DNA of 64,000 nucleotides. Source: Peterkaempfera bronchialis. Its GTDB lineage: Bacteria; Actinomycetota; Actinomycetes; Streptomycetales; Streptomycetaceae. Position 1 is the stretch's first letter. Each line of letters begins with the position of its first letter. The stretch is from assembly GCF_003258605.2 (NCBI RefSeq), contig NZ_CP031264.1, positions 6,316,232-6,380,231 on the forward strand, in the 5' to 3' direction. Of the stretch, positions 1,656-55,202 are shown in pieces. The position numbers were made by a program, and so were the translations under genes. The notes below the pieces were generated by a model. It did no database searches. It was not told the origin of the DNA and worked only from the letters and a program-made list of their open reading frames with translations.

Positions 1656-3566
1656 GTGGGGGCTGCCGAGGAGGCCGACACCGAGGCGGTGAGCAGCGAG
1701 GAGCTGCTGTTCGGCGGTCCGCTGCGGTATGCGGACGGCTGGGCGCGGCACCAGTTCGCCTGGATGGACATGTCGTTCCTGGCCATGGCGCGTCGCCTGC
1801 CGCGCACCGCGCTGCGGGCGTTCACGCTCGCCTGGGCGGCCGACCGGCGGGCGCTGCTCTCCGTCCTGGCGGCGGAGACCGGGCAGGGCGCGGCACGGGC
1901 CTTCGGGCTGCTGGCCACCAACCTGGTGCTGGTCGAGCTGTTCGCGGCCGGCCCCACCCCGGACCGGGTGCGCTCCGCCCTGCCCTCGCTGGCCTGGGTG
2001 GCGGCCGCCGGTGCCCTCGGGGCGGTGCTGGCGGCCTGGTCCACGGCGGCCACCGGCGCCCTGGAGCCCAAGGTCGAACGGCTGGCCACGGTGCGCTATC
2101 TGCGGCGGGCCGCCCGGGTCGAACTGGAGGCGGTGGAGGACTCGGAGTTCCACCGGCTGCTGGACTCCGCGCAGTACGGCGCCGAGGCCGCCCGCCGCAT
2201 GGTGGGCTACAGCGTCGGCGTGCTCAACGCCCTGCTGGCGCTGGTCGCCGCCGGCGGGGTGCTGGCGGTGCTGCATCCGCTGCTGCTCCCGCTGCTGCTG
2301 CTGATCGCGCTGCCCCGGGGCTGGGCCTCGGTGCGCACCGCCCGCCGCCGGTACCAGTCGTTCCTGGCCTGGCTGGAGCACGCCCGCGCCCGCCGGGTGC
2401 TGGCCGAGCTGATCACCAGCCGGGAGGCGGCGCAGGAGGTGCGGGTGCACGGCGCGGGCGGCTTCGTCCTCGACCACTTCGAGCGGATGGCCGCCAGGGC
2501 GGAGGCCGAGCAGACCCGGCTGGCCCGCGCCGAGGCGGTGACCGATGTGACGGCCTCCGCCCTGGCCGGGGTCGCTGCCGGAGCCACCTATCTGGCGCTG
2601 GGGCTGCTGCTGGTCTCCGGCGGGATGCCGCTGGCGGTGGCCGGTACCGCCGTGCTGGCGATCCGTACCGGCACCGCCGACCTGGGCTCGCTGGTGATGC
2701 AGGTCAATCTGCTCTATGAGCAGGCCCTCTTCTTCCAGGACCTGGAGCGGGTCAGCGAGGAGGCCGAGCGCCGGGCGATCCCGGTCGGCGGCGCGGCGGT
2801 GGCCGAGCGGCCGCAGCTGGTCCGCTTCGAGCAGGTCTGCTTCGCCTACCCGGACCGCAAGGCCCCCGCGCTGCACCAGGTCAGCCTGACCCTGCGACAG
2901 GGCGAGATCATCGCCCTGGTGGGGGAGAACGGCTCCGGCAAGACCACCCTGGCGAAGCTGCTGGCCGGTCTCTACCGGCCCACCTCGGGAAGGATCCTCT
3001 GGGACGGTGTGGACGCCGCCGAGCTGGACCGCGAGCAGCTCTTCGACCGGGTCGCGCTGGTCTCGCAGGACTTCCACCGCTGGCCGTTCACCGCGCGGGT
3101 GAATGTCGCCATCGGGCGGCCCGGCGCCCCGGACGGCGACGACCGACTGGAGCGGGCCGTCCGCCATGCCGACGCCCATGCGGTGGTGGACGAGCTGCCC
3201 AGCGGCTGGTCCACCCTGCTCGCCCGCCAGTTCGCCGGCGGGGTGCAGCTCTCCGGTGGCCAGTGGCAGCGGCTGGGGCTGGCCCGCGCCCACTACCGCG
3301 CGGCCCCGCTGCTCATCTGCGACGAGCCCACCGCCGCCCTGGACCCCAGAGCCGAGATCGAGACCTTCGAGCGCATCCGCCGCCTGGCCGACGACGGCCA
3401 GTCCATCGTCCTGATCACCCACCGGCTGGCCTCGGTCCGCCACGCCGACCGGATCTACGTACTCTCCCGGGGCCACCTGGTCGAGGAGGGCACCCACCCC
3501 GAACTGCTCGCCGCCGGCGGCCACTTCGCCGAGCTGTACGGAATGCAGGCCGACCAGTACCGCTAG
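1656..3566 (+). CDS. ABC exporter, fused membrane and ATPase domains
   Basis: A half-size ABC exporter of about 636 residues. The N-terminal part (to about 370) carries hydrophobic helices, for example around VLAVLHPLLLPLLLLIALP. The C-terminal ATPase has Walker A GENGSGKTT (about residue 425), Q-loop SQDFHRW, signature LSGGQWQRLGLARA, Walker B LLICDEPTAALD and switch His ITHRL. It would work as a dimer exporting an unknown, probably small or peptide, substrate. The reading frame is open from 1488, but GTG at 1656 is preferred because GGGGAGGGGG lies five bases upstream and the preceding residues are low-complexity Gly/Ala/Arg. No partner gene identifies the cargo. Confidence 0.85.
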   Translation: MGAAEEADTEAVSSEELLFGGPLRYADGWARHQFAWMDMSFLAMARRLPRTALRAFTLAWAADRRALLSVLAAETGQGAARAFGLLATNLVLVELFAAGPTPDRVRSALPSLAWVAAAGALGAVLAAWSTAATGALEPKVERLATVRYLRRAARVELEAVEDSEFHRLLDSAQYGAEAARRMVGYSVGVLNALLALVAAGGVLAVLHPLLLPLLLLIALPRGWASVRTARRRYQSFLAWLEHARARRVLAELITSREAAQEVRVHGAGGFVLDHFERMAARAEAEQTRLARAEAVTDVTASALAGVAAGATYLALGLLLVSGGMPLAVAGTAVLAIRTGTADLGSLVMQVNLLYEQALFFQDLERVSEEAERRAIPVGGAAVAERPQLVRFEQVCFAYPDRKAPALHQVSLTLRQGEIIALVGENGSGKTTLAKLLAGLYRPTSGRILWDGVDAAELDREQLFDRVALVSQDFHRWPFTARVNVAIGRPGAPDGDDRLERAVRHADAHAVVDELPSGWSTLLARQFAGGVQLSGGQWQRLGLARAHYRAAPLLICDEPTAALDPRAEIETFERIRRLADDGQSIVLITHRLASVRHADRIYVLSRGHLVEEGTHPELLAAGGHFAELYGMQADQYR

Positions 3567-51328: not shown

Positions 51329-52507
51329 TCAGCCGGTCAACTCGGCCACCAGCGCGCCCAACTGCTCCACCTCCAGCAGAAAGGCGTCGTGCCCATACGG
51401 CGACTCCACCACCCGCAGCCGGTCGGCGCCGGGGATGCCGGCCACCAGACGGCGCTGCTCGGGCAGCGGATACAGCCGGTCGGAGTCCACACCCGCCACC
51501 ACGGTCGGGGCGCCGACCCGGCGCAGCGCCGCCGCCGTGCCGCCCCGGCCCCGGCCGATGTCATGGCTGTTCATCGCCTCGGTGAGGACCACATAGCTGC
51601 CCGCGTCAAAGCGGCGGGCGAGCTTGCCCGCGTGGTGGTCCAGATAGGAGCCGACCGCGTACCGGCCGCCGTGCCATGGATCCTCACCCCGCTGGGCGGC
51701 GCGGCCGAACCGGGCGTCCAACTCGTCCGGCGACCGATAGGTGAGGTGGGCTATCCGGCGTGCGGTGCCCAGCCCCGCATGCGGCCCGCCGCCCGGCCCG
51801 GCGTCATGGTAGTCGCCGCCGCGCCACCGGGGGTCGGAGCGGATCGCGGCCACCTGGGCGTGCGCCCAGCCGAGTTGCTCCGCCCCGGAGGCCGCCGGGC
51901 AGGCGGCCAGCAGCAGCGCGCCGACCCGCTCGGGATGGCCGACCGCCCACTCCAGGGCCCGCATGCCGCCCATGGAGCCGCCCAGCACCAGCGCCCACCG
52001 CTCGATGCCGAGCGCATCCGCGAGCGCCACCTCCGCCGCCACCTGGTCACGCACCGTCAGATGCGGGAAGGAGCCGCCCCATCGGACGCCGTCCGGGCGC
52101 CGGGAGGACGGTCCGGTGGTGCCCTGGCAGCCGCCCAGCACATTGGGGGCGACCACAAACCAGCGGTCGGTGTCCACCGCCCGGCCCGGCCCGATCAGCC
52201 CGTCCCACCAGCCGGCGGTGGGATGCCCGGGCCCGGCCGGGCCGCTGACATGGCTGTCGCCGGTCAGCGCATGCAGCACCAGGACGGCGTTGGAGCCGTC
52301 CGGCGCGGGTTGCCCCCAGGTCTCGTACGCGATCCGGACGCCGGGCAGTGCCGCACCGGACTCCAGCGCCAGCGGCCCGGGCAGCGCCGCCCACCGCCGC
52401 CGCCCGACCGGGTCGCCCTCCTGCCAGGCGCCGGTGGCAGGCGGCAGCGGGTCGGCCCCCACCGGGCCGGTCCGCTGCCGCACCGGTCGCGGCGCCCGGA
52501 CGGTCAA
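51329..52507 (-). CDS. metX: homoserine O-acetyltransferase MetX
   Basis: A 392-residue alpha/beta-hydrolase-fold acyltransferase of methionine synthesis: homoserine plus acetyl-CoA (or succinyl-CoA) to the O-acyl ester. Markers are YETWGQPAPDGSNAVLVLHALTGDSH, APNVLGGCQGTTGPSS, the nucleophile LGGSMGGMRALEW and the catalytic Asp and His in GVDSDRLYPLPEQ and SPYGHDAFLLE. The start appears to be TTG 52507, which overlaps the metY stop as TTGA; AAGGGG lies just before it. A GTG at VGADPLPP is the alternative. It is co-transcribed with metY and makes that enzyme's substrate. Confidence 0.9.
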   Translation of the reverse strand: MTVRAPRPVRQRTGPVGADPLPPATGAWQEGDPVGRRRWAALPGPLALESGAALPGVRIAYETWGQPAPDGSNAVLVLHALTGDSHVSGPAGPGHPTAGWWDGLIGPGRAVDTDRWFVVAPNVLGGCQGTTGPSSRRPDGVRWGGSFPHLTVRDQVAAEVALADALGIERWALVLGGSMGGMRALEWAVGHPERVGALLLAACPAASGAEQLGWAHAQVAAIRSDPRWRGGDYHDAGPGGGPHAGLGTARRIAHLTYRSPDELDARFGRAAQRGEDPWHGGRYAVGSYLDHHAGKLARRFDAGSYVVLTEAMNSHDIGRGRGGTAAALRRVGAPTVVAGVDSDRLYPLPEQRRLVAGIPGADRLRVVESPYGHDAFLLEVEQLGALVAELTG

Positions 52508-53865
52508 GCGGTCCCCTTGACCGCGCGGAAGCCGGACTCCAGGTCGGCCTTGAGGTCCGCCAGGTTCTCGATGCCCACCGAGAGCCGTACCAGCCCCGGG
52601 GTGGCGCCGGTGGCGGCCAACTCCGCCTCGCCGAGCTGGCTGTGGGTGGTGGACGCCGGGTGGATGATCAGGCTGCGGACGTCCCCGATGTTGGCCAGGT
52701 GGCTGAAGAGCCGCACCGCGTCCACGAACCGCTTGCCCGCCTCCACCCCGCCGCGCAGTTCAAAGGAGAGCACCGCCCCGGCGCCACGCGGCAGATAGCG
52801 CTGCCCGGCCTCGTACCAGCGGTTGGACGCCAGCCCCGGGTAGTGCACCGCGTCGACCTCGTCGCGGCCCTCCAGCCACTCGGCGATGGCCAGCGCATTG
52901 GCCGAGTGCCGCTCCAGACGCAGCGACAGCGTCTCCAGCCCCTGGATGACGAGGAAGGAGTTGAACGGCGCGATGGCCGGGCCGAGGTCGCGCAGCAGCT
53001 GCACCCGCAGCTTCACCGCGAACGCCGCCGCGCCCAGGTCCGGCCAGTAGCGCAGGCCGTGGTACGAGGGGTCGGGCTCGTTGAAGTCCGGGAACCGGTC
53101 GGCGTGCGCCCCGTAGTCGAAGGTGCCGCCGTCCACCACCACTCCCGCGATGGCGGTGCCGTGGCCGCCCAGGAACTTGGTCGCGGAGTGCACCACGATG
53201 TCGGCGCCGTGCTCGATCGGCCGCAGCAGATAGGGGGTGGGCACGGTGTTGTCCACGATCAGCGGCACGCCCGCCGCGTGGGCGACATCGGCGACGCCCC
53301 GGATGTCCAGCACATTGCCGCGCGGATTGCCCAGGGTCTCCGCGAAGAGCGCCTTGGTCTCCGGCCGGATCGCGGCCCGCCATGCCTCCAGGTCGTCCGG
53401 GTCGTCGACAAAGCTCACCTCGATGCCGAACCGGGGGAGCGTATGGCGCAGCAGGTTGTAGGTGCCGCCGTACAGCGAGGTGCTGGAGACGATGTGGTCG
53501 CCCGCCTTGGCCAGGGTGAGGATCGCCAGGGTCTCGGCAGCCTGCCCGGAGGAGGTCGCCACCGCTGCCACCCCGCCCTCCAGCGCGGCGATGCGCTGCT
53601 CCAGCACATCCTGGGTGGGGTTGTGGATACGGGTGTAGATATTGCCCTCCTCGGCGAGGGCGAAGAGGTCCGCTGCGTGCTTGGTGTCGCGGAAGACAAA
53701 GGAAGTCGTCTGGTAGATCGGTACGGCGCGGGCACCGGTCGCCGGGTCGGGCGCCGCTCCGGCGTGCACCTGCTTGGTCTCGAACGACCAGGCGGGGGTG
53801 TCGGTCTCGGCCGAGGCGACGGCCAGCTCCAGCTCGGCGGTGGCGGGGTCGACGGACGGGCTCAT
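52504..53865 (-). CDS. metY: O-acetylhomoserine sulfhydrylase MetY
   Basis: A 453-residue PLP enzyme of the Cys/Met metabolism family that makes homocysteine from O-acetylhomoserine and sulfide. Markers are [84 protein letters not shown] (PLP lysine in SATKF) and [15 protein letters not shown] 53865 follows GGAG; the frame upstream is open but not coding. A leader peptide 228 bases upstream suggests attenuation in response to a sulfur amino acid. Confidence 0.95.
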
Positions 53866-54065
53866 GGGTGGACTCCAGGGGTACGGGGGCGCAGCGGTCC
53901 CGGGGCGGGGCGCTGCTGCGCAGGGACGGTCTGGGAACGCAAAGCGGCAGGGAGGTGCGCAGGCAGCCGCTCGGGACCAGGGCCCGGGCGCGGCGGAGGA
54001 GCCGCTGTGCGGCGCGGAAGGAGAACGCGGAAGGAGAAAAGGAGAAAGCGACTGAGGATCAGACG

Positions 54066-54081
54066 GCATCCGACCGGATGC
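54066..54081 (-). promoter_or_regulatory. hairpin after the metYX leader peptide
   Basis: GCATCCGACCGGATGC pairs as seven base pairs with a two-base centre, starting 12 bases after the leader peptide stop. It is a candidate terminator or attenuator stem in the 228-base stretch between leader and metY. Confidence 0.45.
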
Positions 54082-54092
54082 GGCCTCCGGGA

Positions 54093-54167
54093 TCAGCCCA
54101 GACGGCGACAGCCGGTGCTGGTGATGCGCCCGTAGTCCACGTGGCGACGGATCACAAGCACGGTCAT
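54093..54167 (-). CDS. 24-residue leader peptide of metYX
   Basis: A 24-codon ORF with ATG 54167 and TGA 54093-54095. Its core RRHVDYGRITSTGC followed by RRLG fits the small streptomycete sequences annotated as putative leader peptides upstream of sulfur-assimilation genes. They share an (R)RHVD segment and one or more Cys codons near the end. Ribosome stalling at the late Cys codon when Cys-tRNA is scarce would change folding downstream and raise metYX expression. The shape and placement are seen; the mechanism is known only by analogy with cysteine attenuators in actinobacteria. Confidence 0.8.
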   Translation of the reverse strand: MTVLVIRRHVDYGRITSTGCRRLG

Positions 54168-54287
54168 GCGCCAACCCTAGCGCCGCCTCGGGCCGCCGCG
54201 CCAGGGATCCTGGCAGGTCGGCGAGTTGTTCGGACCTGCGGGCCGCCGGGTTTCGGGGCCAGGCCACCACAACGGCGCCTGCCTTGC

Positions 54288-54299: not shown

Positions 54300-55202
54300 A
54301 TGCCTGATGATCAGCAACTGCGGCCCCGCCTTGGCGTGATGTTCGACCGGGATCGGCCCCCCGAGGAGCTGGCCGCCTTCGCCGTGGCCGTGGAACGCCT
54401 CGGGGTGGACGACCTCTGGGTGGTGGAGGACCTGCCCTGGGCCGGTTCGATCGCCGCCGCCACCGCAGCCCTGGCCGCGACCGAGCGGCTGCGGGTCGGC
54501 ATCGGCATCGCCCCCGCGCCGCTGCGCAACCCGGTGCTGCTGGCCATGGAGTTCGCCACCGTGGCACGGCTCTTCCCGGGCCGCCTCGCGGCCGGCATCG
54601 GGCACGGCGTCGCCGAGCTGCTGGCGCCGGCCGGCGCCCTGCCGCAGGCCAGGCTGGCACTGCTGGAGGAGACGGTCACCGCCGTACGGGCGCTGCTGCG
54701 CGGGGAGACCGTCACCCTGAAGGGCCGCGCCGTCCACCTCGACGGCGTAGAGCTGGTGCACCCGCCCACGGTGGTTCCGCCGGTCCTCGCCGGAGTGGTC
54801 CGGCCGCGCTCGCTGGAGCTCTCCGGGCGGGTCGCCGAGGGCACCGTGATGGCCGAGGGGCAGGGCCCGGACGAGATCGCGGCGGCCCTCGACCGGATCG
54901 ACGCGGGCCGCCGGGCCGCCGGCTCCGACGCGCCCCACCAGCTGGTCGTCTTCACCCATCTGCGGGTCGACGACGACCCGGAGCGGCTGCGCGAGGCGAC
55001 CGAGGAGACCGTCACCGGTCACGCCGCCTGGCTCGGCGTCGATCCGGCCGACCTCTTCCTGGCCGCGGGCCCCGGGTCGGTGGTGGCCGCCCGGGTCCGC
55101 TCCCTCTGGGAGGCGGGCGCGGACTCGGTGGTGCTGCGCCCGATCGGCGCCGACCCGCTGGACCAGGTCCGGGCTGCGCTGGAGGCACTCGGCCGGGCCT
55201 GA
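54300..55202 (+). CDS. luciferase-like (LLM) flavin oxidoreductase
   Basis: A 300-residue LLM-class oxidoreductase using F420 or FMN. The TIM-barrel markers are PRLGVMFDRDRPPEEL, LWVVEDLPWAGSIAAATAAL, RVGIGIAPAPLRNPVLLAME and FPGRLAAGIGHGVAELL. The Gly-Gly-rich C-terminal barrel (ADSVVLRPIGADPLDQV) closes the fold. Streptomycete members commonly use F420 in hydride transfer. The substrate is unknown. It is transcribed away from the metYX leader and followed by a 10-bp repeat tract. Confidence 0.85.
   Translation: MPDDQQLRPRLGVMFDRDRPPEELAAFAVAVERLGVDDLWVVEDLPWAGSIAAATAALAATERLRVGIGIAPAPLRNPVLLAMEFATVARLFPGRLAAGIGHGVAELLAPAGALPQARLALLEETVTAVRALLRGETVTLKGRAVHLDGVELVHPPTVVPPVLAGVVRPRSLELSGRVAEGTVMAEGQGPDEIAAALDRIDAGRRAAGSDAPHQLVVFTHLRVDDDPERLREATEETVTGHAAWLGVDPADLFLAAGPGSVVAARVRSLWEAGADSVVLRPIGADPLDQVRAALEALGRA

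Follow-up and report, generated by a model that had tools for sequence, protein, structure and literature searches.

A probable cysteine-sensing leader peptide with a conserved TGT codon upstream of metYX in Peterkaempfera bronchialis

The metYX genes of Peterkaempfera bronchialis are preceded by a short open reading frame whose peptide very probably senses cysteine, and the motif Cys of this frame and of its relatives is encoded almost without exception by TGT, a codon invariance that is new here. The window, i.e. the whole 64-kb stretch of DNA that was analysed, carries on its minus strand (as do all features below unless stated) a 24-codon ORF at 54167–54093, with the product MTVLVIRRHVDYGRITSTGCRRLG, the core RRHVDYGRITSTGC and the stop codon TGA, separated by a gap of 227 nt from the metY start at 53865. 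The first-pass annotation had proposed a cysteine-controlled leader of metYX with a TGC control codon, a type not used on cysteine genes. The 24-codon ORF was found where proposed, and a cysteine-sensing leader is well supported by the sequences because of the conserved peptide, the leaderless geometry, the fixed Cys, the relation to curated families and the paralogues before sulfur genes, whereas codon 20 (54108–54110) reads TGT and the exclusion of cysteine genes did not hold, as described below.

The metY gene (52504–53865) encodes a bifunctional O-acetylhomoserine/O-acetylserine sulfhydrylase (PRK07812, 821 bits, cut-off 703) and has the likely Shine-Dalgarno (SD) sequence CTGGAG at 53873–53878; its stop is overlapped by metX (51329–52507), which encodes a homoserine O-acetyltransferase (NF047917, 540 bits, cut-off 475). 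MetY of the window and all 80 homologues read contain no cysteine at all, which would be fitting for an enzyme produced under cysteine scarcity. On the plus strand, a Bac_luciferase (luciferase-like monooxygenase) gene at 54300–55202 starts 133 nt from the leader, so that the short gap is common to both control regions. The pattern R[RL]H[VI]DxxRx5C occurs a single time across the six frames of the 64-kb window, and the peptide is kept before most of the metY homologues compared, indicating that the leader ORF is not a chance frame.

The comparison was made by searching a genome collection with MetY, which gave 80 metY loci whose upstream sequences of up to 700 nt were examined for an in-frame leader peptide. 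Such a peptide was present at 57 of the 80 loci, bearing out the earlier suggestion that the RRHVD...C peptide should recur in other metY leaders, and its typical form was MTVLVTRRHVDYVRVTTTGCxAxS. The Cys at codon 20, four codons ahead of the stop, was unchanged in all 53 of the 24-codon metY leaders, while several positions differed synonymously. Another Cys peptide was found upstream at four non-matching loci: MNPEPLVRRLVIDLCRRPASCCC before S. scabiei metY, MMSEPLVRRLVIDLCRRPGSCC before S. fumanus metY, a GTG-start peptide with the C-terminus TCCRAAH before S. omiyaensis metY and, in S. sulfonofaciens (L059), a related frame some 168 nt 5' of position 3001 that extends 26 codons beyond the Cys and terminates in an ATGA overlap with the metY start. 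At L028 and L054, polycysteine leaders of the type LVRRLVIDLCRR, ending ASCCC and GSCC, take the place of the RRHVDY type. Since some metY leaders thus carry a different Cys peptide that ends in CCC, CC or CCRAAH, the property common to metY leaders is a Cys close to the C-terminus. The other non-matching loci had no peptide of this kind, and a group of Streptomyces metY genes (L037, L047, L061, L065, L076, L084, L088, L089 and others) showed no recognisable Cys leader upstream.

Judged by sequence, the relatives of the metYX leader are the Cys-leader peptides of actinobacteria known from mycobacteria (NF042934 and NF042936), with scores below the curated cut-offs. The NF042936 model (Ms4527A Cys-rich leader) matched the window peptide with E = 2.7e-6 and 26.9 bits against a cut-off of 45, whereas NF042934, annotated cis_reg_atten 'putative leader peptide', gave no match to it at E = 10 and scored a typical metY peptide at 19.6 bits, under its cut-off of 27. 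Across the class, NF042936 matched at E ≤ 1 in 171 of 198 genomes, with just 10 above the cut-off and most weak by themselves; the class-wide leader peptides that were inspected one by one were clear. One group of leaders (L092–L099, L104, L106 and L113) is of the type MTLLVSRRHVDHGRATTTGCRRVG/S with the stop-codon stem GCCGCG..CGCGGC, and in L093, L099, L106 and L113 the next gene encodes a protein predicted to be of the secreted type, which has FGPLPPQNP close to its start. The P. bronchialis genome itself gave 14 NF042934 matches, 7 of them above the cut-off, and together with a peptide search at least 12 leaders with readable neighbours. These precede mostly sulfur genes: a sulfite/nitrite reductase homologue, a dioxygenase, SfnG, TauD, an SfnB-like oxidoreductase, a rhodanese, peptide/nickel-type solute-binding proteins, an SsuA-like protein, an alkanesulfonate monooxygenase homologue, metYX and also cysteine synthase, the gene at odds with the supposed exclusion.

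The mycobacterial polycysteine leaders (Ms4527A/nirA and Ms5788A/cysA2; NF042936 and NF042933) share with the metYX leader the RRHVDxxRV...C motif, the place before sulfur genes and the leaderless geometry, which for metYX is predicted from the spacing of a −10-like element; in mycobacteria, the small ORFs in front of cysA2 and nirA were found to be leaderless and occupied by ribosomes (PMC4633059), and the sulfite/nitrite reductase homologue of P. bronchialis also carries such a leader. They differ in their target and in having a run of Cys codons, where the metYX leader has one (two or three occur in some other metY leaders). Since it misses the curated cut-offs and has no Cys run, we regard the metYX leader as a variant rather than a member of the mycobacterial Cys leaders. 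The lone Cys, once thought less usual, is normal among Streptomyces-type leaders, as in those covered by NF042934. RNA-seq of S. lividans revealed eight leader peptides, and for none of them is a dependence on cysteine described (PMC8079986); the literature searched held no study of Streptomyces cysteine leaders.

The metY mRNA is probably leaderless, starting at about 54167, as suggested by a −10-like hexamer at a fixed distance of 6–7 nt from the start codon. In the window this hexamer is TAGGGT (54174–54179), 6 nt ahead of the ATG, accompanied by a weak −35-like CTGGCG (54199–54204) with 19-bp spacing, for which aligned relatives have CTGGTG at about 18 bp. Of 66 distinct metY upstream sequences, 64 carry a T[TA]NNNT-type hexamer at 6–7 nt from the ATG, TANNNT occupies the matching place in 14/14 non-metY leaders, and a GTGGT just 5' of the leader is invariant in 31 aligned leaders. 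In S. lividans, promoters have the −10 element TAnnnT, 17% of transcripts are leaderless, and leader peptides are often so (PMC8079986).

The most consistent feature of these leaders was the codon of the motif Cys. Codon 20, which is position 14 of the motif RRHVDLxRVxSxxC, was TGT in 53/53 metY leaders and TGT in other Streptomycetaceae leaders too; in a class-wide set drawn at the protein level and spanning many actinobacterial families it was TGT in 92 of 94 leaders (78 of 80 unique peptides), L138 and L157 alone having TGC. The remaining Cys codons of the same class-wide ORFs were mostly TGC (22/30 at position 10 and 22/40 for further Cys; Fisher p ~1e-12 against the motif Cys, indicative only as the sequences are related), and the background share of TGT among Cys codons was about 9–15% (14/154 in window ORFs, 102/692 in neighbouring genes). 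Shared ancestry does not account for this rule, since the other motif residues keep their amino acids class-wide and vary their synonymous codons freely. Nor does selective isoacceptor charging, a theory that requires isoacceptors (PMC1183508), because tRNA-Cys(GCA) was the sole tRNA-Cys found among the tRNA genes of the genome. We infer that UGU is decoded slowly through G34 wobble, and suggest tentatively, as an idea with somewhat less than an even chance, that the sensor is this specific wobble-decoded UGU, perhaps aided by the conserved nascent peptide, making it a codon-specific ribosomal cysteine sensor used in many operons. No report of the TGT rule was found in the literature searched, which is a part of the whole.

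Three hairpins are predicted in or just after the ORF. H0 (54112–54163) lies within it and closes just ahead of the Cys codon, its arms being the start region and the codons immediately preceding and at the Cys; across the class, pairing of the start region with codons 10–14 exceeded permuted sequences (z −4.46, 0/2000). Fixation of UGU by pairing in H0 was considered and set aside, as no more than 47, 44 and 29 of the 79 duplexes predicted had its three bases, respectively, in a pair. H1 (54083–54106, −15.0 kcal/mol) pairs the codons after the Cys with bases after the stop and holds the stop codon in its loop. In 61 metY leaders it covaries between species (native −13.71 versus permuted −12.76, z −4.2, 0/5000); class-wide it reached no significance (z −1.5), and we dropped it as a feature outside metY leaders. 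The third hairpin, GCATCC-GGTC-GGATGC at 54066–54081, has a perfect 6-bp stem (−8.2 kcal/mol; z −3.2 for the 16-mer alone, which was picked because it folds). This confirms the clean hairpin first seen after the ORF, although the stop-codon stem at 54083–54106 comes first after the Cys, and the conservation then expected of the 54066–54081 stem was not observed: it is specific to the window and absent from the related metY leaders compared, in which the stop-codon stem covaries instead. Fold prediction for the window gave an extended H1 (54073–54116) for the free leader, in which UGU is paired with GCA, and the mutually exclusive 54066–54081 hairpin when a ribosome stalled at UGU was masked, so the two may form a switch, as modelled thermodynamically for this one sequence.

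Further downstream, most Streptomyces metY leaders have a hairpin of 50–60 nt (H2), mostly 34–50 nt past the stop and often of the form ACCGC...GCGGT, and the C/T-rich sequence behind it has no U run; several S. lividans leader peptides likewise lack a U run (PMC8079986). Because the H2 pair was chosen as the best hairpin, its own covariation is uninformative and shuffled sequences were used instead; the best hairpin was stronger than in these (mean −30.1 versus −21.4, mean z −2.9). No H2 was clearly recognised in the window, and an Rfam scan of the window returned zero matches. A classical antiterminator was not supported either, as no segment covaried with the 5' arm of H2 besides its own 3' arm. 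The segment from the leader stop to the SD is rich in C and poor in G (C 47% and G 27% in the window, 49% and 26% in 56 leaders, 38% and 35% in control upstream regions; C minus G was 23.5 points in leaders versus 2.9 in controls). Rho loading sites are rich in C and poor in G, and a pyrimidine-rich, G-poor stretch at 54013–54055 is a possible one.

As to how the ribosome stalls, which way expression responds and how transcription ends, we infer the following course. A leaderless metYX mRNA would have the leader ORF as its first cistron, and translation would begin at the AUG of its 5' end. A shortage of charged tRNA-Cys would slow the ribosome at the lone UGU, four codons ahead of the stop, where it would mask the 5' arm of H1 and refold the C-rich stretch from the leader stop to metY, letting more transcripts extend into metYX. 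With ample cysteine, the ribosome would be released at the stop and H1 would form, and the C-rich leader would then allow an early end of transcription, either Rho-type or hairpin-assisted. A stall followed by transcriptional attenuation is, as a specific mechanism, slightly better than an even bet; as the read-out, transcriptional attenuation is favoured with moderate confidence on account of the C-rich, G-poor leader, the conserved hairpin and the results for the SD given next.

The leader RNA could instead hide the metY ribosome-binding site (RBS) unless a ribosome stalled at the Cys opens it. Such an RBS-hiding read-out was reportedly described by Canestrari et al. in 2020 for a mycobacterial polycysteine leader. 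The regulation by a mycobacterial polycysteine leader has been termed translation attenuation (PMC13236596). In agreement with this, many metY SDs contain GGAG, to which the GCTCC right after the leader stop can pair; however, pairing between leader segments and the SD region, taken segment by segment, did not covary (z −1.6 to +2.1), and in a fold model with a ribosome masked at the Cys the accessibility of the SD went down in 26 and up in 8 of 56 leaders, a modelled direction opposite to simple derepression by translation. SD sequestration is thus unsupported for metYX, and we consider control at the level of translation unlikely. Somewhat less likely still is that the nascent RRHVDxxRVxSxxC chain helps to halt the ribosome at UGU, with the peptide and not the codon alone acting as the sensor. 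Classical leaders conserve mainly their control codons, and the retention of the motif amino acids with free synonymous codons would suit such an arrest, but the H0 hairpin could partly account for the conservation of the motif. We regard it as improbable that a Cys stall reduces metY by freeing an anti-SD, which would save sulfide for cysteine synthase under cysteine shortage, since, although it agrees with the direction of the SD-accessibility model and a stall in the ATGA-overlapping frame of S. sulfonofaciens should cut ribosome delivery and so lower coupled metY translation, the SD pairing does not covary, MetY itself is an OAH/OAS enzyme, and like leaders precede cysteine synthase, sulfite reductase and sulfonate genes, which are expected to go up when cysteine is short.

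With the classical trp, his and leu attenuators and the S. lividans leader peptides, the metYX leader shares a short ORF, a control codon and downstream hairpins. It differs from them in its single control codon and its conserved peptide, and no classical terminator/antiterminator pair was found in it, competing stems being predicted in the window only.

With this leader, metYX, and thus homocysteine/O-acetylserine sulfhydrylation, is added to the functions that in Streptomyces-type bacteria probably lie behind cysteine-responsive leaders, of which this genome has at least 12. Selective-charging theory (PMC1183508) does not explain how a single codon gains sensitivity when one tRNA reads both Cys codons, and the TGT rule offers a simple codon-swap handle on how a single-codon attenuator does so.
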